Source of the DNA: Wenzhouxiangella sp. 15190
Lineage (GTDB): Bacteria; Pseudomonadota; Gammaproteobacteria; Xanthomonadales; Wenzhouxiangellaceae
Length of the DNA: 64,000 bases
Assembly: GCF_003417465.1 (NCBI RefSeq)
Contig: NZ_QVMV01000027.1
Span: forward strand, 124,001 to 188,000
Direction of reading: 5' to 3'
Within the stretch, counting starts at the first letter, position 1; each line of letters opens with the position of its first letter. Under the pieces are notes generated by a model, which saw only the letters and a program-made list of their open reading frames with translations, did no database searches and was not told where the DNA came from. A program made the translations under genes and the position numbers. Shown piece by piece: positions 2,604 to 64,000 of this stretch.

Positions 2604-4115
2604 TTAGGATGATTCAATCGGTCGCACTTTCAGGACCAGGCCTTCGATGGCCGTGACCTCCACGACCTGGCCGCGCTCGATCGGTGCGTCGGATTCAGCA
2701 CTCCAGTCCTCGCCCTCGAGGTGCACGCGTCCCTGACCCTCGTGAAAATCGCTGATCGCCTCGGCCTGGCGACCGGCCAGCGCCTCGCGGCCGGCAGTCT
2801 GCGGCCGCCGGAAAGCCTTCGCGGCGAAATAGACGATGGCCAAAAACACCAGCGCCGAGGCCAGCCCCATGGCGGCAATGATCCCGGTGTTGATGCCCAT
2901 GCCGGGTACGTCGCTGTCCATCAGAATGATCGAGCCGACAACTACGGCGATCACGCCCCCGATCCCGAGTATGCCCAGCGAGGGCACGAAAAGCTCCACG
3001 GCGATCAGGGCGAAACCCAGCAACATCAGGGCCAGCCCCACATAGTTGACCGGCAGGATCTGGAAGGCATAGAGCGCCAACAGCAGGCAGATGCCGCCGA
3101 TCACGCCCGGAACGAGCGCACCGGGGTTGTAGCCTTCCAGGATCAGGCCGTAGATGCCGATCATCAGCAGAAGGTAGGCCAGCGTGGGATTGGTCAGCAC
3201 GCTCAAAAAGCGGTTGCGCCAGTCCGGCTCCTTCTCGACGATCCGCGCTCCGGCGGTGTTCAATGTCAGGGTGCCGGAAGCCATCCGGACCTCGCGGCCG
3301 TCGATGGTCTCGAGCAGGGACGGAATATCCGGGCTGACCAGGTCGATGACGTTCATTTCCTCGGCCTGGGAGGAAGTCAGGCTGACGGCTTCGCGCACGG
3401 CGCGCTCGGCCCAGTCGGCATTGCGGCCGTGACGTTCGGCGAGGCCGCGGATGTAGGCCACAGCATCCTCCACGGCTTTCCGGCTCATGGCATCGCCCGG
3501 TTGTGATCCACCGGACGCTTCCCCGGAGTCGGTCTGTTCGTCGGCTTCGGACGAATCCTCTGCCGAGTCTTCTCCATTCTCGTCGGAAGACTGCTCTTCC
3601 TCTTCGAGCGCATCACGCGCCCGCTCCATGGGCGAGGCTGGCTCTTCCTGGTCGCCTCCGCCGCCACCGCCGCCGATTTGCACGGGCGTGGCCGCCCCCA
3701 GGTTGGTCGACGGCGCCATCGCCGCGATGTGACTGGCATAGAGCATGTAGGTTCCGGCACTGGCCGCGCGCGCGCCCGGTGGCCCGACCCAGGTGGCCAC
3801 CGGCACCTGCGAGTTGAGCATCTTCTTGATCATGTCGCGCATCGAGGCGTCCAGGCCACCGGGTGTGTCCATGCGCAGGACCACAAGGGCCGCGCCGGCG
3901 GACTCGGCTTCCTCGATGCCGCGAATGACGTAATCCCGCGTTGCCGGTCCGATGCCCCCTTCGACCTCCAGGACATGAACCACGGACGAGTCCGGATCAT
4001 CGGTCGACGGCGCCTGTGCCCACGCTGCCAGGGCGAGCATGAGTGCCGCGAACATCATCAACCAACGACCGGATCGTGCTGGGCGAATAGGTTTGCATTT
4101 TTTGTTGTCCATCAC
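2604..4115 (-). CDS. nfeD: NfeD-family membrane serine protease (long form)
   Basis: 503 residues: signal peptide or anchor (about 15-35), ClpP-class protease domain, four to five membrane segments (about 305-440) and a C-terminal OB-fold NfeD domain. The nucleophile serine is in [13 protein letters not shown] and the expected lysine lies downstream in the protease domain. Long NfeD proteins cleave the C-terminus of partner stomatins, and the slipin gene follows immediately. The protease domain is interrupted by an acidic, low-complexity stretch of about 50 residues (about 150-205, rich in Glu, Asp and Ser) that is probably a disordered loop. Confidence 0.9.
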
Positions 4116-4238
4116 GGATTACATTAGACCTTTGAAGGCGTGATCGCAACGTGCGCGCTTTGAATCGGCGCGTCTACGCCCCAACCATCGACAACGAGCG
4201 AAACGCAGTCAATCGATCAATCCGATCAGGAGAACAGC

Positions 4239-4658
4239 ATGAACGAAAACAGCATGCGAGAGCAGCTGAGCATGAATGGCGAAGCGCTTTATCGGGAAGA
4301 GACCTTCACTGACCGCAGTGTGGGAACGATCCAGCGACTAACCCCGGTGACCGCGAACGGCGATGACGATTCGTCGCGCTCGGTGCGCTACATCGGCCAA
4401 ACGCAGGTGATGAGCCCGGCCGGCGCGCTGCCGATCACTTTCGAACTGGAAGTCGACTCATTGTCCGATGCCGTAGCCGGCTTCCCAGAAGCGGCCGAGA
4501 AAGCCGTGGAGGAAACCGTCGAGGAACTCAAGCGCCTGCAGCGCGAGGCACAGTCGTCGATCACGGTGCCCGGCCAGGAAGGCGGCGGTCAGTTCGGCGG
4601 CATGGGCGGCCAGGGCGGACCCGGCGGGATGGGTCCCGGCGGCGGGATCCAGATTTGA
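4239..4658 (+). CDS. hypothetical protein with Gly-rich tail
   Basis: 139 residues with no signal peptide or membrane segment; AGGAG sits seven bases before the ATG. Residues 1-85 look globular, residues about 85-110 form a charged helix (EKAVEETVEELKRLQREA), and the last 25 residues are nearly all Gly with Gln, Met and Pro (FGGMGGQGGPGGM). I do not recognise the family and assign no function. It is divergent from nfeD and convergent with the ABC permease gene, so it is probably monocistronic. Confidence 0.7.
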   Translation: MNENSMREQLSMNGEALYREETFTDRSVGTIQRLTPVTANGDDDSSRSVRYIGQTQVMSPAGALPITFELEVDSLSDAVAGFPEAAEKAVEETVEELKRLQREAQSSITVPGQEGGGQFGGMGGQGGPGGMGPGGGIQI

Positions 4659-4668
4659 GGACTGGTTC

Positions 4669-5454
4669 CTAGGTACGGAGCCCCGTACCCCTGGACAGCA
4701 GCAGCAGGCTGACCGAACCGAGGATCGCGCCAAAGAGAAGAATCATGAAGTAGGCCAGTCCCAGGGATACGTCACTGATGCCGAGCATGCCGTAACGAAG
4801 TGCGTTGACCATGTAGAGGATGGGATTGCCCAGGGCCACCTGCTCCCAGATGCCGGGCAACAGGCCGACGGAGAAGAACACGCCCCCGAGATAGGTCATC
4901 GGCTGCAGCACGAAGGTGGGAATGATGGCGATGTCGTCGAACTTCTGTGCGTAGATGGCGTTGATGAAGCCGCCGAGCGCGAACACCACGGCCGTCAGGA
5001 ACAGGATCGACAGCGTAACCAGCACGTTGTTCATGAAAAAGCCGGAGAAGAAGCCGGCCACCAGCCAGACCAGGAAACCGACGGTGAGGGCACGAAACAT
5101 CGCGCCCGAGACATAACCGGCCAGAATGATCCAGGGTGGCAGCGGGCTGATCAGCAGTTCCTCGATGTGCTTGCCGAACTTGGCACCGAAGAACGAGCTG
5201 GTGATGTTGCCGTAGCTGTTGGTGATCACCGACAGCATGATCAGCCCCGGCACGATGAACTCCATGTAGTCGATGCCGCCCATCTCGCCCACGCGCCGGC
5301 CGATGATCGAACCGAAGATGACGAAATACAGCGTCATCGTGATCACCGGCGGGATCAGGGTTTGCGGCCAGATGCGCAGGATGCGCGTGACCTCCTTGAT
5401 CAGGATGGTCTTGTAGCCGGTCCAGTAAGTGCGTGCGGAAACGTCGACGCTCAT
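4669..5454 (-). CDS. ABC-2 type transporter permease (YadH-like)
   Basis: 261 residues with six predicted membrane helices and the ABC-2 permease fold (IPPVITMTLYFVIFG near the N-terminus, LGNPILYMVNALRYGMLG near the C-terminus). Length and pattern match E. coli YadH. Its start overlaps the stop of the ATPase gene by four bases, so the two form one exporter. The substrate is unknown; related pairs export lipids, polysaccharides or drugs. Confidence 0.9.
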   Translation of the reverse strand: MSVDVSARTYWTGYKTILIKEVTRILRIWPQTLIPPVITMTLYFVIFGSIIGRRVGEMGGIDYMEFIVPGLIMLSVITNSYGNITSSFFGAKFGKHIEELLISPLPPWIILAGYVSGAMFRALTVGFLVWLVAGFFSGFFMNNVLVTLSILFLTAVVFALGGFINAIYAQKFDDIAIIPTFVLQPMTYLGGVFFSVGLLPGIWEQVALGNPILYMVNALRYGMLGISDVSLGLAYFMILLFGAILGSVSLLLLSRGTGLRT

Positions 5455-6532: not shown

Positions 6533-8013
6533 GTGGGATTCAAATCCAGATTTCGAGCCATCTTCTGCGGCGTCCTCATCGGTCTGACCAGCGCGCCGGC
6601 TCTTGCCCAGGAAGACCGCGTCGAGGACCGCTGGGCCGGGTTGAACAAGTGCGAACTCTCGGCCGCAGGCGGACGCCTGACCGCCGACGCGCTCTGCGGC
6701 ACGCTCACCGTAGCTGAAAACCCGGAACAACCCGAAGGGCGGCAACTGGAACTGGCGTTTGCCGTCAAGGAGGCCCGCGCCAGCGCGGTGCTCGAAGATC
6801 CGGTGGTCTTCCTGGCCGGCGGGCCGGGTCAGTCGGCACGCGACGCATTGCCGATCATGCAGCGCGCGCTGCGCGAGCTCAACCGCGAGCGCGACCTGAT
6901 CTTCCTCGATCAGCGCGGCACCGGTGGTTCCAACGCGCTGGAGTGCGGTTTCGACGACCAGGGAGAGCTCTGGCTGGAACCGGACTGGGACGAGGTCAAC
7001 CGACAATTGCGGGGCTGCCTCGACGACTGGGAGGCGGATGTCCGCCTCTATACCACCACGCAAGGCGCGTCCGACCTCGAGGCCTTTCGCGAAGCCTTTG
7101 GATTCGAATCGCTGAATCTCATCGGCGGTTCTTACGGCACCCGCATGGCCCAGGTCTACCTGCGCAACTATCCGGAGCGGGTGCGCAGCGTGGTGCTCGA
7201 CGGCGTGGTGCCGACGCGCCTGGCCCTGGGCGCCGAACACGCCATGATGCTCGACCGTGCACTCGGCAAGGTGTTTACCGCCTGCAGCGAAGACGCCACC
7301 TGCGGCGGTGCCTTTCCCGGCCTCCAGTCAGCCTTCGAAGAACTCAAGACCCGCTATCGCAACGAGAACCCGCAACTGGTGGTGACCCACCCCCGCACCG
7401 GCGAGGGCATCGACTTGCACTTCACCCGGGACGTATTGGCCAGCGCGCTGCGCTTTCTCGCCTACAACCCCGAAACACAGATGATGATTCCCTACCTGGT
7501 GCACGAGGCAGCCAGCACGGGCAGCCCGGCACGCCTGGCAAGCCAGGCCATGATCGTCTCCGACCGGATGAACGACATGATAGCCATCGGACTCAATTTC
7601 GCCGTCGGCTGCAGTGAGGACTGGCCGGTCTGGCCGGACGACATCGATCAATCCGAAACCCTGCTGGGCGACAGCATGACCGAAATCTACGAGCAGGTCT
7701 GCTCCTGGTGGCCGGCCGGCGACACACCGGCGGATTTTCACGAGCCCTTCGACGCCGACGTGCCCGTGTTGCTGATGTCGGGTGAGCTCGACCCCGTAAC
7801 GCCGCCGGACTACGGCGAGGAGGCGGCCGCACAATTTTCCGACAGTCGCCACCTGGTCGCCGACGGCCGCGGCCATATCGTGCTCACCAACCCCTGCATG
7901 AGCTCGATTGCCACGCAGTTCGTGCGTGATGCCGGCGTGTCCGACCTCGACGTCGACTGCATGGACCGCATCGGCCACGAACCCTTCTTCATCGACCTGC
8001 TCGGACCGGCGCC

Positions 8014-8017: not shown

Positions 8018-8750
<733 letters not shown>

Positions 8751-10080: not shown

Positions 10081-11073
10081 ATGCGCAACTTTCTGATCCC
10101 CCTGTCGATTGCCCTCACCAGCACCGTCGCGGCAGCACAGGACGAGGGCGCCGTCGCTGAAATCGAAATTCGCGAATGGCAGGTTCCGTGGGAATCCAGC
10201 CGCCCGCGGGATCCCGACGTCGCGGCCGACGACCGCATCTGGTTCGTTGGCCAGGGCGACGACTACGTCGCCGTTTTCGATCCGGAAAGCGAGGAATTCA
10301 AGCGCTACGACCTGCCCGAGGGCGCCGGGCCCCACAACGTGATCGTGACCGACGACCAGGAGATCTGGTACGCCGGCAATCGTGCGGCTCACCTGGGCCG
10401 GCTCGATCCCGAATCCGGCGATATCGAGCAGGTGGCAACCCCCGAAGAGCGTGCTGCCGACCCACACACCCTGATCGAGGACTCGAAAGGCCGGATCTGG
10501 TTCACTTCACAGTGGAGCAATCACATCGGCCGCTACGACCGCGACAGCGGGGAGATCGAACTGGTGGGCGTCACGGAGAAGAACTCGCGGCCCTACGGCA
10601 TCGTGCTCGACGACGAAGGCAACGCCTGGGTCGCCCTGTTCGGCACCAACAAGCTGGGCCGCGTCGATTCTGAAACCTTCGAACTGACCGAAATCGAGCT
10701 ACCGCGCGAGGACGCGCGTCCGCGGCGCCTGGCACTGACGGACACGGGGCTTTTTTACGGCGACTACAACAAGGGTTATCTGGGCCACCTTGATCCCGAA
10801 AGCGGGGAAATCACCGAATGGCGCATGCCCGGAGAGGACAAGTCGGGCGCCTACGCCATGGCCGCCGACGACGAGGGCCGGATCTGGTTCGTGGAAACCT
10901 GGCAGGATCCCAATCGCTTCGTCGGCTTCGATCCGGAAACGGAGTCCTTCTTCGCCATGGGCGACGTCCCCAGCGGCGGCGGCACCGTGCGCCACATGGT
11001 GTTCGACCCGGAAACGGACAGCATCTGGTTCGGGACGGACACGAATTATCTCGGTCGGGCCGAGGTGCCGTGA
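10081..11073 (+). CDS. secreted virginiamycin B lyase-like beta-propeller
   Basis: 330 residues with a clear signal peptide (about 1-20, ending VAAAQ). Six or seven blade repeats carry the motif D-x-x-G-x-I/A-W-F/V (RIWFTSQWSN, RIWFVETWQD, SIWFGTDTN), the pattern of Vgb lyase/SMP-30-like propellers. True streptogramin cleavage is documented for few members; most environmental homologues have unknown substrates. Located in the periplasm or outside the cell. It stands alone between natB and a hairpin element. Confidence 0.8.
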   Translation: MRNFLIPLSIALTSTVAAAQDEGAVAEIEIREWQVPWESSRPRDPDVAADDRIWFVGQGDDYVAVFDPESEEFKRYDLPEGAGPHNVIVTDDQEIWYAGNRAAHLGRLDPESGDIEQVATPEERAADPHTLIEDSKGRIWFTSQWSNHIGRYDRDSGEIELVGVTEKNSRPYGIVLDDEGNAWVALFGTNKLGRVDSETFELTEIELPREDARPRRLALTDTGLFYGDYNKGYLGHLDPESGEITEWRMPGEDKSGAYAMAADDEGRIWFVETWQDPNRFVGFDPETESFFAMGDVPSGGGTVRHMVFDPETDSIWFGTDTNYLGRAEVP

Positions 11074-11119
11074 CGCGGGAGCTGGTTTGCCGTCCGGATC
11101 GTGTGCGGGGCTGCTGGGT

Positions 11120-11228
11120 CTTTCGTGAATAGAAAGAAGAAAATAGAAAATAGAGAAAAGAGCCAAGCGACAGTGGCTGGGGGGCTGTCTTTTTCTATTT
11201 ACTATTCACTATTTACTATTTACGAAAG
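11120..11228. repeat. hairpin element E3, AATAGAAA type
   Basis: Left arm 11120-11160 (CTTTCGTGAATAGAAAG, then repeated GAAAATAG units) pairs with the right arm 11190-11228 (CTATTTACTATTCAC through TTTACGAAAG). The arms have an irregular 7-8 base period; the loop is about 29 bases. It fills the space between two convergent genes. Confidence 0.75.
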
Positions 11229-11279
11229 GGCAGATCACCGCCCCGCCGCGCAAGGCGCCCCCAAGCGCTCAAACCTAAC

Positions 11280-12050
11280 CTAATTCTTCGGCGGCCACGG
11301 AACAAACGGCGACGTCGTGCGCTGGTACTCCCGGTAGGCGTCGCCGCGCGATTTCAGGGACTGTTTCTCGGTGTAGGGAATCCCCGAAACTCGGTACAGG
11401 AACAACAGCATCACCACAGGACCCAACCAGGCCAGCCACTGGTGTGGCGCGCCCATGGCCACCAGCGGGTAGCTGAACCAGTGCAGCCACTCGAAGAAAT
11501 AATTGGGATGGCGGGAATAGCGCCACAGTCCGGCACGGCAGACCTTGCCCTGGTTCGCGGCCTCGGCCTTGAAGGCGGCCAGTTGCCGGTCGGCCAGCGA
11601 TTCCCCGGCCAGACTGACAAACCATATCGCGACCCCGGCGATCACCCAGCCATCCAGGGCGGGGGACGGGTCATTGACCACCACCCAGGCGGGCAGGGCG
11701 AACAGCCAGGCAACGAATGCCTGTACCAGGAAGAAGAAGAAAAAGAACAGATTTGCGCGCTGGCCGAAATGCGCTCGCATCGCCTGGTAGCGCCCGTCTT
11801 CCTCGTCCTGGGCGGCCAGCCGCCGGATCAGGTGAACGGCAAGCCGCTGGGACCAGATGGCGGCCAGCAACACACCCACCAATCGCTTTTCAATTGCGCC
11901 ATCGCCAACCACCGCAAAGGCAATCGCCTGCAGGCCGATCAACAGTGCCCACGCGGCATCCACCCAGTCGGCGCGTTTGGAGCGAATCTGCCACAGCCAG
12001 AGCGCGAGCATGACCGTGCCACAACCCGCGAGAGCGAGCCATAATTCCAT
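11280..12050 (-). CDS. DUF1295 membrane protein (steroid 5-alpha-reductase/ICMT fold)
   Basis: 256 residues with six or seven membrane helices. The C-terminal cofactor-binding signature of the family is present: GLWRYSRHPNYFFEWLHW followed by GIPYTEKQSLKSRGDAYREYQR. DUF1295 proteins are related to steroid 5-alpha-reductases and isoprenylcysteine methyltransferases and are thought to act on lipids in the inner membrane. A run of seven phenylalanines (FFFFFFF) occurs in one helix. No operon partner is visible. Confidence 0.85.
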   Translation of the reverse strand: MELWLALAGCGTVMLALWLWQIRSKRADWVDAAWALLIGLQAIAFAVVGDGAIEKRLVGVLLAAIWSQRLAVHLIRRLAAQDEEDGRYQAMRAHFGQRANLFFFFFFLVQAFVAWLFALPAWVVVNDPSPALDGWVIAGVAIWFVSLAGESLADRQLAAFKAEAANQGKVCRAGLWRYSRHPNYFFEWLHWFSYPLVAMGAPHQWLAWLGPVVMLLFLYRVSGIPYTEKQSLKSRGDAYREYQRTTSPFVPWPPKN

Positions 12051-57675: not shown

Positions 57676-58116
57676 TCAGGATTGCATGTCCTGCGACTGG
57701 CTGGCGTGTGGGAAGGCTTCCTGAATGCTGCCACGCACGGGGCGCGACAGAAAGGTCTTCCTTAGCAGTGTCGTGGACAGGGGTTGGCGCCGATTCCAGG
57801 GCAACAGGGACACAAATCGCGCCATGCCGCAGTATCCGACAAGCACCAGGGCCCAGGTACCGATGGTTGGCAGCCAATACAAGAGTTGCAGGGGTTCGGG
57901 GAACGCGACGAGCAGCAAGGCCAGGTACCAGGCCCTGACCTGGATGGGGAAGGCGGCGAGGTTTTTCTCCCGCAGCAGGTAATGGATCAGCTGGATGACC
58001 GTGAGCGCGATGGCAAGAGGGAATCCAGGCAGATAACCCAAAACACCTGCGGTCAGGAGGCAAGCGGTGGCGAGCCAGTACCACCAGCTGAGCTTGTTGT
58101 AGTCGATCATCAACAT
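57676..58116 (-). CDS. hypothetical small membrane protein
   Basis: 146 residues with three or four membrane helices (YWLATACLLTAGVLGYLPGFPLAIALTVIQL and WLPTIGTWALVLVGYCGMAR) and a basic tail of 45 residues. Similar conserved proteins beginning with IDYNKLSWWYW-like sequences exist in Gammaproteobacteria by my recollection; no function is known to me. Confidence 0.65.
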   Translation of the reverse strand: MLMIDYNKLSWWYWLATACLLTAGVLGYLPGFPLAIALTVIQLIHYLLREKNLAAFPIQVRAWYLALLLVAFPEPLQLLYWLPTIGTWALVLVGYCGMARFVSLLPWNRRQPLSTTLLRKTFLSRPVRGSIQEAFPHASQSQDMQS

Positions 58117-58229
58117 GGCGATCGCGGATGCCGGTTATGGAGAGATACGGAATGGTGAGGGATTTGCCGCCAATGCATTGGCGGGGAGCCGCCTCGATCA
58201 AAAGCGCTCGGCGACCCGGCAATGCCGGG

Positions 58230-58976
58230 TCAGTGTGCCAGTACCAGCATCTGGAAAGCCATCATCACCGCAAAGGCCACAGTCACGGCGGTGGCGGCCG
58301 AACCGGAATCCACCTTTTCGAGTGCGTCGGGAAACAGTTCCGAGAAGAGCATCCAGATCATCGCCCCGGCCGCCAGCCCCAGCCCAACCGGCAGGAACGG
58401 CCGGAAGGTCTCGACGAAGATATAGGCGGGAGCGGCCATCAGCGGCTGCGGCAGGCTGGTGAAGATCGCCCACAGCGCCGCTTTCCATACCGGCGTTCCA
58501 CGCGGGACCAGTACCAGGGCGATGGCCAGGCCTTCGGGCACGTTGTGGAAGGCGATCGCCAGGGTGATGTAGGTGCCCAGGCCTTCGGTGCCGGCAAAGG
58601 CCACTCCCACGCCGATGCCCTCGGCAAAGGAATGGGCCGTCATGATGCCGAGGATCAGCAGCGCTTTCGTGGCGTTCGCGCCCACCAGTTGCGCCACTTC
58701 GACATCGCCCCGGCTCGACAGCCAGCGGTCGGCGAGGACGATGGCGACGAGCCCGGCCAGCACACCGCCCAGCGTCAGTACCACATCGATCGAAACACCC
58801 TCGGCGATCAGGCTGTGGCTGGCGGCCAGCATCAATCCGGCTGCGGCGGCATTCGACCAGCCCATGGTCCGATCGGACACCTTTCTGACGAACAGGAAAG
58901 GCAGGGCACCCACGCCGGTCATCACCGCGGTAAAGAACGCCGCGGCTACAACGATCCAGAGGGCGGTCTCGGTCAT
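58230..58976 (-). CDS. ZIP-family metal transporter
   Basis: 248 residues, eight membrane helices. The two metal-binding helices are clear: MTAHSFAEGIGVGVAF (helix IV) and AFHNVPEGLAIALVL (helix V), with His/Glu ligands intact. Probably Zn or Fe import. The start overlaps the GNAT stop by four bases, so the two are co-transcribed. Confidence 0.9.
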   Translation of the reverse strand: MTETALWIVVAAAFFTAVMTGVGALPFLFVRKVSDRTMGWSNAAAAGLMLAASHSLIAEGVSIDVVLTLGGVLAGLVAIVLADRWLSSRGDVEVAQLVGANATKALLILGIMTAHSFAEGIGVGVAFAGTEGLGTYITLAIAFHNVPEGLAIALVLVPRGTPVWKAALWAIFTSLPQPLMAAPAYIFVETFRPFLPVGLGLAAGAMIWMLFSELFPDALEKVDSGSAATAVTVAFAVMMAFQMLVLAH

Positions 58977-59527
58977 CGATCAGTACCAGCGTTGTGCACT
59001 GCGAACCGAACGGGTTTGAACACGAAGTCCTCGGGGCCTGGAATCTGCATGGGATAGTAAGCCACGCCGTGCTTTTCCTGCTGCCCCGCCGTTGCCCCGA
59101 AACCCATCTTGCGATAGGCCTCGGTCGCATACCGCGATGCATTGACGGTAAGCGGCGCCGGCGCCGGAGATTCTCGCCACGGATTCGTCGCCTCGAACAG
59201 TAGCTGGCGGGCCAGGCCTCTTCGCTGAAAGGGTGTGTCCACAAACAGATAGTAAACGTGCGTCGGTGTGCTCATTGCGACGACGCCGGCCAGCGCTCGA
59301 TCGGTTTCCGCGACATGGAACTCGAAACCCGACTCGAAGCGTTCGAGCATTCTCTCGGGCGCCAGTTCGGCCAGAAAGAATCGCCCGCCGGCCTCCGATA
59401 GATCCGGCAGAACGTATCGTCGGGTCAGTTCGGTCAGAAGTTGACTGATGGCTCCGGCATCGCCAACAACGGCCCGTCTGATGTGCGGCGCCGTTCCAGT
59501 CGATCGGCGCTCGTCACTGGACGTCAT
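58973..59527 (-). CDS. GNAT-family N-acetyltransferase
   Basis: 184 residues. The acetyl-CoA motif VDTPFQRRGLARQLL (R/QxxGxG/A type) is at about 93-107, and the N-terminus is TGTAPHIRRAVVGDAGAISQL, the normal GNAT start. Substrate unknown. Linked to the ZIP gene. Confidence 0.87.
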   Translation of the reverse strand: MTSSDERRSTGTAPHIRRAVVGDAGAISQLLTELTRRYVLPDLSEAGGRFFLAELAPERMLERFESGFEFHVAETDRALAGVVAMSTPTHVYYLFVDTPFQRRGLARQLLFEATNPWRESPAPAPLTVNASRYATEAYRKMGFGATAGQQEKHGVAYYPMQIPGPEDFVFKPVRFAVHNAGTDR

Positions 59528-60766: not shown

Positions 60767-60901
60767 CTACGGTGACAAACCCCCAGGCTCCATGTGCATC
60801 TCGAACTTCAGTTTTTCACATTGAGCCTCTGTGCCAGTTTGATGAAAGAATATCTTCTCGCCGGTAACTGGGTTTTCGATTATTTCATCGGCGCTTTCCA
60901 T
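60767..60901 (-). pseudogene. cupin gene fragment, frameshifted
   Basis: ATG 60901 with GGAGGAG upstream opens ENPVTGEKIFFHQTGTE, KLKFEMHMEPGG, the start of a cupin of about 150 residues, then stops after 44 codons. In another frame just after the GGGGG run the text continues VEHVHPYQAEHFSVQ, the expected metal-site motif. One missing G explains it; homology then ends near 60715. Looks like a decayed cassette gene. Confidence 0.6.
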
Positions 60902-60972
60902 GCTTTCTCCTCCAGTTGATCCTCAAAAAAGCACTGCTGGTTCATGCCCGTGACCTGTTCTCGGGGGAAATT

Positions 60973-61047
60973 GCATAATACTCAGCGTCAGCGGCTCAAC
61001 CAAGAGCGTAGCGAGTGATTTGGTCCGACTGCATGCGATTGTTAGGC
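60973..61047 (-). other. attC-like site 1 (75 bp)
   Basis: Minus strand: R'' GCCTAAC followed by AATCGCATGCAGTC, an ACCAA/TTGGT stem around 61000-61025, and a degenerate R' ATTATGC in place of GTTATGC. Marks the end of the MipA/OmpV cassette. Confidence 0.6.
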
Positions 61048-61182
61048 CATATTATTCAATTTATACCAGTAGACCGCAATCTGTTCAGAATGGACTTTCA
61101 TATTTTAAGATTAGAGGTCGAAAATCAGTTAGAACCAAATCTTCAAACGTGAAGTGACCGTATCTGATCTATCCACAGAAGG

Positions 61183-61220
61183 TTCACGCAGAATTCACAT
61201 ACTCGGAGAGATCTTATATA
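61183..61220 (+). promoter_or_regulatory. promoter with tandem TTCAC repeats before mipA-like gene
   Basis: TTCAC at 61183 and 61194, an 11-base period typical of OmpR-type response-regulator sites, followed by TTATATA (61214-61220) as a -10 candidate. It explains how an inverted cassette gene is expressed. Confidence 0.45.
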
Positions 61221-61246
61221 CCAACATAACTTGGTACGTAATTTAA

Positions 61247-62074
61247 ATGAAAACGTTTACAGGTTTGCTGTTGGCAGTGTTCATATTTGCGCTCCTCTTT
61301 CAAACAGCATTAGCACAGGACGGAAAAACAGCTTTGGTGCCCTTACCCTCGGTCGACGACTTTACGAGGGGTGATGATGGCTGGGGTTTCGGGCTGGGCC
61401 TGGGTGTTGAATACGAATCTGCCTACGAAGGATCGGATGAATTCGGCTTCGAAGTCCAGCCTGCTGGTGCAGCACAATGGCGCAGGGGTGATGACGTTTT
61501 CTACTGGGCCGGTGAGGCGCTTGGGTGGCGTGGCCTTCGTGCTGATACGTGGCTTTTCGACGCCGCCCTGGCCTTCGATGAAGGTCGTGAAGAAAGTGAT
61601 TCCGATGACGGTCGATTGGATGGACTCGGCGATTCAGATGAGGGTCTTGAACTTGTGCTGCAAGCCCGTCGCGCTTTCGATGCCAATTGGCGTTATTGGC
61701 TGGATGGTCGAGTCGTAACCGGCGAGAACGGAAACCTTGGTCTTTTCGGGGCCGGGCGCCGCTTCGGCAACCAGAATGACGGAACCGGTTCTGAACTTGC
61801 TATCGTTGCAGTTTTTCACGATAGCGAGCGTGCCAATAGAGATTTCGGAGTCACCGCATTGCAGTCAGCTGCATCGGGACTGAATGAGACCGACCTGAGC
61901 GGCGGATTCCGCTCGATTGGGGTCAATTACAATTATCGTAATTACATCAACGAGAATTGGCAGATTTTCGGCGAGGCGCTCTATGAGCGTTATAGTAGCG
62001 ACATTGAGGATAGCCCAATCGCACGCAACAACTATGAAGCCGAAGTAGGCGTCGGATTCATTTACGTATTCTAG
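61247..62074 (+). CDS. MipA/OmpV-family outer membrane protein
   Basis: 275 residues with a signal peptide (about 1-23, ending ALAQ). GWGFGLGLGVEYESAYEGSD at the N-terminus of the mature protein and EVGVGFIYVF at the end, with alternating beta strands, fit the MipA/OmpV outer-membrane barrel. Its strand is opposite to the cassette orientation, and it brings its own AT-rich promoter region (61050-61246). Codon use is less GC-rich than the core genes, consistent with acquisition. Confidence 0.85.
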   Translation: MKTFTGLLLAVFIFALLFQTALAQDGKTALVPLPSVDDFTRGDDGWGFGLGLGVEYESAYEGSDEFGFEVQPAGAAQWRRGDDVFYWAGEALGWRGLRADTWLFDAALAFDEGREESDSDDGRLDGLGDSDEGLELVLQARRAFDANWRYWLDGRVVTGENGNLGLFGAGRRFGNQNDGTGSELAIVAVFHDSERANRDFGVTALQSAASGLNETDLSGGFRSIGVNYNYRNYINENWQIFGEALYERYSSDIEDSPIARNNYEAEVGVGFIYVF

Positions 62075-62077
62075 GCC

Positions 62078-62163
62078 GCCTAACGATTTAGCTAAGCGGC
62101 ACGCGTAAGCGCATCCGGTAGAGTCCCGATAGGGACGGAACGTACTTTGGCGACTTGTTATAA
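62078..62163 (-). other. attC-like site 2 (86 bp)
   Basis: Minus strand: R'' TTATAAC, AAGTCGCC, a perfect GTCCC-TATC-GGGAC hairpin inside, CTTAGCTAAATC, R' GTTAGGC. Same length and the same inner blocks (ACGTTCCG, CTTAGCTAA) as the site at 63876-63961. Confidence 0.75.
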
Positions 62164-62179
62164 AAGAGCCTGAAAGGGG

Positions 62180-62482
62180 CTAAGGTAGCCGGCACAAATC
62201 ACGCTTCTCTAGACGTTCAACCAGTCTCACAGCATCCTTAAGCTTTTGAGTTACGCGTTCTCGTTGGTTGGCATCTACCACTAGATCAGGTCTGATATGG
62301 GGCACTTCGCTTCGCAAGAAAGTACAGTTCATTCGAATTAGTTCCTCATACGACTGGCTTTCTGCGGCCTTGATATTTCCCGTATAGATGTATGCTGAGG
62401 ATTGAGCCTGGGCACGGTGCAGATAGCGCCGGGCTTCATCGATGAACTTCGAGGGATTTGCTCCGGATTGCTCTGGAGTCAC
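62180..62482 (-). CDS. hypothetical cassette-encoded protein
   Basis: About 100 residues, mostly helical and charged: GANPSKFIDEARRYLHRAQAQ, AAESQSYEELIRM, RPDLVVDANQRERVTQKLKD. No membrane segment. Family not recognised. The frame is open up to 62512, but that stretch is attC sequence, so the start is likely the GTG at 62482 or later. The stop is 17 bases before the next attC, as expected for a cassette. Confidence 0.6.
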   Translation of the reverse strand: MTPEQSGANPSKFIDEARRYLHRAQAQSSAYIYTGNIKAAESQSYEELIRMNCTFLRSEVPHIRPDLVVDANQRERVTQKLKDAVRLVERLEKRDLCRLP

Positions 62483-62488
62483 ACTGAA

Positions 62489-62560
62489 AGCTAACACCGA
62501 GCTCACAGGCAAAAATTGAGCGCAGCGAAATCTCTTGTCCTGTGCAGCGCCTGGTTATAC
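62489..62560 (-). other. attC-like site 3 (72 bp)
   Basis: Minus strand: R'' GTATAAC, CAGGCGCTG, stem CACAGGACAAG/TTTTTGCCTGTG, GAGCTCGGT, R' GTTAGCT. A textbook attC outline. Confidence 0.8.
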
Positions 62561-62999
62561 GGCACTTCTTACCTGCTCAAGCACGCGTGTGAGCCGATCA
62601 AGATTTTGCTCATTTGCCGGGCCTGCCCTTTCTTTGACTACCTGCGCAGTTTGAGCATCGTCGAACACCTGAGTCCAGGTTACGTGCGTTCCACGACCTT
62701 TAGCAGTGAGTTCAACTGTGAGTCGAAAATTTGGCGGGCAGTCATGTTGAATGACTATTTTCGAATTGGGTTCAAGTGCTTCGAACCTGCTCTCGTTCTG
62801 GTAGTCGGTTCCGTCTGGGGCGTGCATAACGAACTTCCAGCGCCCCCCCTTCCGTGAACTCATGAATTTCGAAGGTATTTGAAAAACCCTCAGGCCCCCA
62901 CCATGCGGCCAACAATTCAGGCGAAGCAAATGCCCCGTAAATTTCTTCTGGGGAAAAAGGCAGAGTTCTGGAAGTACGCAGCGTCCTGTCGTCAGTCAT
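62555..62999 (-). pseudogene. AHSA1/SRPBCC-domain gene with frameshift
   Basis: ATG 62999 opens TLPFSPEEIYGAFASPELLAAWWGPEGF, the AHSA1 (START-like) N-terminus. After EGG at the C7 run (62843-62849) the homology moves to the second frame, RWKFVMHAPDGTDY, then FRLTVELTAKGRGTHVTWTQVF to the stop at 62555. One extra base in the homopolymer is enough. Intact, it would be about 147 residues. The gene starts 34 bases after attC site 4 and ends inside site 3. Confidence 0.75.
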
Positions 63000-63032
63000 T
63001 CATGGAACTCCGAGTTGCGTGGGATTCGCGCC

Positions 63033-63083
63033 GTATAACGCCGGGAATCAGCCGGGCGGTTGTATGCGTCGGCTGAGTTAGCC
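63033..63083 (-). other. attC-like site 4 (51 bp)
   Basis: Minus strand: GGCTAAC, stem TCAGCCG/CGGCTGA, then CCCGGC and R' GTTATAC. Shorter than usual attC sites (about 57 bp minimum) but bounded by proper core sites. Confidence 0.65.
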
Positions 63084-63125
63084 TGGTTAGCTCTCGAGAT
63101 TGACTTAGTGTCTACTTTAATAAAT

Positions 63126-63791
63126 CTATCGGTGTCGACCGAAGAACTGTGGATTAGTCTTGATGAATGAGTCAATCCAACGTTCGAGAAAGGATTCGTT
63201 GTTAGCCGTTTTGATATAGCCATACCCAAGCACTGCTATTATCAAGGCTCCCGCAGCATCGACAATAAGATCCCACATTGTGTCAGTCAAACCAGAAGGA
63301 TCACCTAGCATCTCCTTTTGCATATTCATACCGAAGTAGCTATCCATACTGAACTCGAAAATCTCCCAGAAGACGCCTATGCCTACTGCGAACAAGAAGG
63401 CAAAAAAGGCAATGAAGCCGGGTTGCATACTCACGTCAATATCTTCTGTTTCGTTTAGTATGTATACCAATAGAAATCCAATAATCCCAAGCAAAAACCC
63501 AGACCCAGTATGAAGAACCAGATCCCACCACCAGAAACGGACGTAGTACCCATGAACTTCACCAAGAAATACCGACGCAAAAACGAAGGTAATTGCGAGA
63601 AGCACAAACTCAGGAGGGATAAAAACGCTAAATCGCCTTGACAGAAATAGTGGGACGAGTGTTACTAAAATGATTCCACTCGTGATCACAGCGGCAAGCC
63701 ACTGCTGTTCCCAGACAGCAGCCACAACCCCAACAGCTAGTATTAACTGGAGCACTAAGGTCAATCGGCGATGTATCAATTGTTGCCTCAT
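63126..63791 (-). CDS. DUF2238 (YjdF-like) inner membrane protein
   Basis: 221 residues with five or six membrane helices. WWWDLVLHTGSGFLLGIIGFLLVY, GVFWEIFEFSMDSYFGMNMQ and LTDTMWDLIVDAAGAL are the conserved blocks of the DUF2238/YjdF family. Function unknown. It lies between attC sites 5 and 4 in canonical orientation and has low GC, so it is a cassette gene. Confidence 0.85.
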   Translation of the reverse strand: MRQQLIHRRLTLVLQLILAVGVVAAVWEQQWLAAVITSGIILVTLVPLFLSRRFSVFIPPEFVLLAITFVFASVFLGEVHGYYVRFWWWDLVLHTGSGFLLGIIGFLLVYILNETEDIDVSMQPGFIAFFAFLFAVGIGVFWEIFEFSMDSYFGMNMQKEMLGDPSGLTDTMWDLIVDAAGALIIAVLGYGYIKTANNESFLERWIDSFIKTNPQFFGRHR

Positions 63792-63875
63792 TCAGATGCC
63801 ACTCTAGTGATGGTTAGCTTAAATAAATCGAAAGGATTATCGCCGCTTCCACACCACTATCAAGGCAGAGTAGCG

Positions 63876-63961
63876 AGCTAACGATTAGCTAAGCGGCGCG
63901 CCTCTGGCGCGTCCGGTGGAGGCCCGACAGGGCCGGAACGTACTTGAGCGACTTGTTATGC
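63876..63961 (-). other. attC-like site 5 (86 bp)
   Basis: Minus strand: R'' GCATAAC, AAGTCGCTCAAG, hairpins GGCCC-TGTC-GGGCC and CGCGCC-AGA-GGCGCG, CGCTTAGCTAATC, R' GTTAGCT. L'' and L' match classical attC sites well. It closes a cassette whose gene lies beyond the window edge. Confidence 0.85.
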
Positions 63962-64000
63962 GATTTGCTGCAAGGAATTTGCAAGATCGCGGCCCGCAGT

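Follow-up and report, generated by a model that had tools for sequence, protein, structure and literature searches.

Background

Integron integrases recombine attI with folded single-stranded attC sites, and the resulting arrays grow at the attI end. In Xanthomonas, intI is located downstream of ilvD and is often inactivated by a frameshift or a large deletion, and additional CALINs are found in about half of the genomes (PMC12444791). Taxon-typed attC sites have been described as well (PMC8352920).

The locus analyzed here is at the right end of the window, that is, the whole 64-kb stretch of DNA that was analyzed (positions 124001-188000 of contig C39 of genome G000); the contig ends at 188501, 501 bases beyond the window. 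Very probably, the attC array there belongs to a sedentary chromosomal integron with a destroyed integrase and represents the distal portion of this element. The element comprises attC sites in a single orientation, an intI remnant, an attI-like motif and a conserved chromosomal address. As in the chromosomal integrons of Xanthomonas, the address is fixed and vertically inherited, intI is inactivated, the cargo is mostly of unknown function with toxin-antitoxin cassettes, and there is probably a CALIN elsewhere (PMC12444791). Unlike the ilvD location in Xanthomonas, the address in this other genus is pntAB on the integrase side and permease/cupin on the distal side, and it is newly documented for a lineage-specific chromosomal integron. 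With at least two attC sites and a functional integrase absent, the contig taken alone matches the IntegronFinder definition of a CALIN, and a standard tool would call it one; in contrast to a CALIN, however, comparative evidence places an intI remnant and attI at the proximal end of the array, which argues for a full integron that has decayed and against a cluster that lacked an integrase from the start. The attC architecture equals that of class 1 mobile integrons, and a class 1 attC model detects the array sites. However, unlike class 1 integrons, which are defined by intI1 together with qac/sul1 or a Tn402 context, the array has chromosomal flanks; no qac/sul1 or Tn402-type genes were found in ORF and family searches of the window, and the window cassettes carry no Tn402/Tn3 functions or recognized resistance genes. 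The element adds one more case to a well-known kind and leaves the integron concept unchanged.

The preliminary description of this DNA considered integrons to be little described in such hosts. This is only partly fair: the Xanthomonas cases are well described (PMC12444791), and a full-length integron integrase scoring above the curated cut-off is encoded in 33 of the 61 relatives from the genus, family and order, compared to 0 of 14 controls at this threshold. A literature search on Wenzhouxiangella integrons yielded one paper in which each of the two terms occurs once.

attC sites of the array

Rfam, at gathering thresholds, gave no RNA family match in the window or in L013-L016 and, therefore, a purpose-built attC model was used. 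This covariance model (CM) was constructed from 13 class 1 plasmid attC sites, with the R''/R' and L''/L' structure set by hand, and was run without filters on both strands of the complete 64-kb window; the 13 are the well-aligned sites, the alignment of 20 class 1 sequences having misplaced L' at long loops. The second detector, a PSSM combined with arm-pairing, was trained on 20 attC sites from plasmid class 1 integrons. Three other approaches were discarded: a first heuristic with untrained arms was too unspecific; strict RYYYAAC/GTTRRRY pairing returned next to no matches because the R'' and R' of genuine sites in this DNA differ at 2-3 positions; and single-stranded folding energy of the bottom strand, compared with shuffles, was exceptional at one site (z -3.30) and near zero at the others, so that four of the five sites were not separated from shuffles. 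The features of the array are listed below from right to left, in window numbering.

about 63981-64391, right of the window: HicA/HicB-like gene pair, with its attC at 63876-63961
63876-63961, minus: attC of the HicA/HicB-like cassette (CM 23.0 bits, E 0.0011; PSSM 33.0)
63126-63791, minus: DUF2238-like membrane protein, 221 aa, open frame (PF09997 20.4 bits, below the cut-off of 26.4)
63033-63092, minus: attC-like site of the DUF2238 cassette, marginal (CM 15.6 bits, E 0.12, rank 4 in 64 kb)
62555-62999, minus: frameshifted AHSA1/START-like gene, 75-aa and 124-aa frames (PF08327 E 4.7e-15 on the 3' part)
62489-62560, minus: attC of the AHSA1 cassette (CM 17.7 bits, E 0.032; PSSM 28.2)
62180-62512, minus: 110-aa ORF, open frame
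62078-62163, minus: attC of the 110-aa ORF cassette (CM 17.4 bits, E 0.039; PSSM 30.1)
61247-62074, plus: MipA-family outer membrane protein, 275 aa (PF06629 E 1.1e-33)
60973-61047, minus: distal-most attC, marginal, with a decayed R' (GTATTATGC) (PSSM 28.4, left arm 20.1)
60768-60903, minus: gene remnant of the last cassette, 44 codons, from translation

The preliminary description had claimed five attC-like sites, all in minus orientation, and had proposed a covariance-model search as the check. In this search, ranks 1-4 in the 64 kb are four of the proposed sites, all on the minus strand within the last 2 kb, and the next-best match anywhere in the window scores 12.4 bits, although the E-values of three of the four sites are weak (0.03-0.12). 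The PSSM detector scores four sites, all except 63033-63092, at 28.2-33.0, compared to at most 17.4 in the remaining window; two 0.5-Mb Markov nulls stay below 22, and 6 sites at 22 or higher, some of which are possibly real, occur in about 505 kb of DNA from other bacterial sources. Overall, the two detectors jointly bear out all five sites, each being detected by at least one of them and three by both, and two sites are marginal. The weakest call is 63033-63092, for which the PSSM detector gives no match, so that the CM and the position of the site carry it. The distal-most site, 60973-61047, with its degenerate R', is absent from the unfiltered CM matches in the 64 kb.

The arms are clearest at 63876-63961, with R'' GCATAAC, R' GTTAGCT and L'' GCT(C)AAG, which pairs with L' CTTAGC and contains an extrahelical C. 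This extrahelical base (GCT-C-AAG vs CTTAGC) sets the site orientation as minus, from which the integrase is expected on the right-hand side. In the site at 62078-62163, which is 89% identical to the repeated attC of the array, L'' is partly degraded (GCCAAAG vs GCTCAAG). As the orientation predicted, the array runs off the window edge toward the integrase side, and the further attC expected right of 64000 is indeed present at the contig end (L013:9920-9999), after the HicA/HicB-like cassette.

A class 1 attC located just upstream of aadA2 on a Vibrio alginolyticus plasmid (L079:7368-7460) has a long core, TACGTTCCGG...CCTCCACCGGAC, in common with the attC type of this genus, a hint as to the source of the aadA2 cassette.

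Cassettes and cargo

Several cassettes of the array are pseudogenes. In the first pair right of the window, hicA is frameshifted and matches Pfam with E 6e-7 on its 3' part, and its 79-aa partner, which has no Pfam match above threshold, would be HicB judging by position. The cargo list of the preliminary description holds up in part: the AHSA1 gene is present but extends over two frames, whereas the DUF2238 match falls below the Pfam cut-off. The outer membrane protein is also there and is MipA-like, but it is encoded on the plus strand, against the direction of the array, between two minus-strand attC sites. For the 110-aa ORF, Pfam and NCBIfam give no match; its start, as annotated, overlaps with the attC before it, and the true start may be internal. 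The “cupin remnant” dissolves into a 44-codon frame without a Pfam match. Left of this remnant, neither the PSSM detector nor the CM finds an attC-like site in the window, and the remnant is the distal edge of the array.

Homologues of the DUF2238-like protein with 70-78% identity are found in records labelled Desulfobacterota, Nitrospirota and Gammaproteobacteria, and none of those from other phyla is flanked by an attC within 600 bp. The gene is widely shared, and its spread need not be through cassettes. The unusually even distribution of this protein over phyla suggests recent horizontal transfer outside integrons.

The integron head and the broken integrase

The preliminary description expected intI and attI to the right of 64000. 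An attI-like site and intI were found, but on another contig, C28, and intI is broken. On C28, pntA and pntB precede the intI remnant, which is on the minus strand; the attI-like site, a 148-aa ORF and an attC that is cut by the contig end come next. The remnant matches TIGR02249 positions 1-46 and 276-314 inside 0.23 kb, with scores of 42.2 and 32.8 bits, far from the cut-off of 265 that marks an integron integrase, and the TIGR02249 search detected no integron integrase above this cut-off anywhere in G000. Compared to the intI of the sister species G003, about 0.7 kb was lost internally, the alignment breaking between G003 positions 4122 and 4835, which corresponds to HMM positions about 47-275 of 315. 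From general knowledge of tyrosine recombinases, the lost stretch presumably holds the catalytic Arg and the His-x-x-Arg boxes, with the Tyr region left in place. The remnant on C28 is most likely unable to act, and it is conceivable in principle that the deletion arose through misassembly. The 5' region of intI, where the cassette promoter Pc would lie, is retained. The attI-like sequence on C28 ends in CCACCTAGTTATTAGTTATG, and the candidate attI motif, CCACCTAGTT(A/C)TTAGTTA, is common to G003 and occupies the position expected between intI and the first cassette.

Synteny and alternative joins

A repeated attC of 81-86 bp is found at the ends of C39, C28 and C42, at the start of C26 and also at C26:3770. 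Four contig ends (C39, C28, C42 and C26) fall inside this one repeat, which indicates that the assembly broke there, and two pairings of the ends are allowed by sequence. Short-read assemblies break at attC repeats, such that window-by-window scans catch only pieces of integrons.

In G003, pntB (93% identical) is followed by a methyltransferase, an intact 319-aa intI, attI with the shared motif, and two cassettes with attC; the attC sites of G003 are 90-96% identical to those of G000. Contig C35 of G003 is collinear with the window at 55.7-59.9 kb, continues through a LysE gene and ends in an attC of minus orientation (8325-8411). In the congener G026, which is assembled into one contig, homologues of the window region at 42.4-48.0 kb are located at 3623.7-3630.8 kb, followed by about 15 attC repeats in the orientation of the window (3640.8-3653.5 kb), a plus-strand intI at 3654.66 kb, and reversed C28 homologues from 3655.9 kb. 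The pntAB genes of G026 are elsewhere in the genome, that is, the integrase-side flank is partly rearranged there, and the flanks are not identical between G000 and G003 or G026. The chromosomal location is conserved in both related species. Given the synteny in G026 and G003, one integron is the best reading, with the window array at one end and the C28 head at the other; the array is non-contiguous in G000, and the C39-C28 join would follow from the gene order in the two congeners. At the DNA level, G000 and G026 have no cassettes in common, only attC, which indicates that cassettes probably turned over since the two diverged. Intact and broken integrases coexist at one locus within the genus, so that array turnover with and without the integrase can be compared.

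The other pairing that the shared repeat allows, C28 with C26 and C42 with the window contig, would make the window array a stand-alone CALIN unrelated to the C28 remnant. This appears improbable because, in G026, one array and one intI lie on one contig between sequences homologous to the window flank on one side and to C28 on the other, whereas in G003, the pntB side carries intI with an array and the window-flank side carries an array; moreover, such pairing would part hsdM/hsdS (C42) from hsdR (C26), which are collinear in G065, G014 and G044. Hardly credible, and largely refuted, is the possibility that the repeats belong to another family, such as intergenic REP/ERIC-like elements lying by chance between small ORFs: despite the unremarkable folding energy at four of the five sites and the modest CM scores, a model made from unrelated class 1 attC puts these sites at the top of the window, they have RYYYAAC/GTTRRRY cores, the L'' extrahelical base and one orientation, and the same repeats directly follow an intact intI in two congeners.

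For the decayed chromosomal integron, the following scenario can be proposed. Cassettes, each consisting of a gene or gene pair with one attC, would have been added serially by IntI through recombination of the folded attC bottom strand with attI. Growth would have proceeded from the intI/attI end (C28, beside pntAB, right of the window) toward the left-hand flank inside the window, which would make all attC sites point one way and the left end the oldest; this end bears a decayed attC along with what is left of a cassette. The single orientation, the attI-proximal intI remnant and the distal decay would all fit IntI-driven growth. The internal loss of about 0.7 kb from intI would later have stopped the integrase, and decay of the array would be reflected in the frameshifts of AHSA1 and hicA and the degraded attC arms. 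Distal cassettes would need promoters of their own for expression. Thus reconstructed, the array would have been mobile in the past and would be inactive at present, probably remaining static unless an IntI arrives from outside.

Features next to the array and in congeners

A ZIP-like metal transporter gene in the window (58230-58976) was not found in any of the 29 congeners searched and, because the congeners lack it, was unusable as a synteny marker. The region 57676-59527, which includes this gene and its neighbors, among them a GNAT-like gene, interrupts the permease-cupin order of G003 and, on sequence comparison, looks like a recent insertion beside the array edge.

The G026 array contains two near-identical transposase genes (L077:6834-7925 and 10384-11475), with a third partial match at L072, about 2.5 kb. 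These transposases are IS110-like by appearance, and their placement suggests an IS targeting or tolerating attC arrays.

A probable second attC cluster between hsdS and hsdR

If C39 is joined to C28, C42 and C26 are the remaining pair and would be joined as well. C42 carries hsdM, hsdS, an attI-like motif, a 135-aa ORF and attC (region L016:5746-6268). The motif, CCACCTAATTCTTAGTTATG, at C42:5746-5765, is identical to the attI core of G003 in 17 of 18 positions. C26 starts within attC and encodes 151-aa, 203-aa, DUF3800, 213-aa and small 79-aa ORFs (cluster region L015:1-4640); a second attC is located at 3770-3855, and further along are a methyltransferase, a serine hydrolase and hsdR, at 7904. 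The class 1 model gives the attC sites of this cluster low scores, 12.5-12.8 bits, and one is cut by the contig end. In the three genomes with collinear hsdS and hsdR (G065, G014 and G044), 1-3 kb of other DNA separates the two genes, and no attC was detected between them. Thus, on the joined contigs, an integrase-less attC cluster likely resides between hsdS and hsdR. More tentatively, this second cluster might have entered the type I restriction-modification locus via the attI-like CCACCTAATTCTTAGTTATG acting as a secondary site, a scenario that we consider possible rather than probable. If so, integrase-driven insertion would have put cassettes at an existing variable site among defense genes.

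Close to this cluster, a DUF222-HNH endonuclease gene (L015:6353-7702) has partial copies of its 3' end at L015:2250-2420 and 4640-4760, scattered amid the cassette-like ORFs as if the whole gene or just its end had been duplicated more than once.
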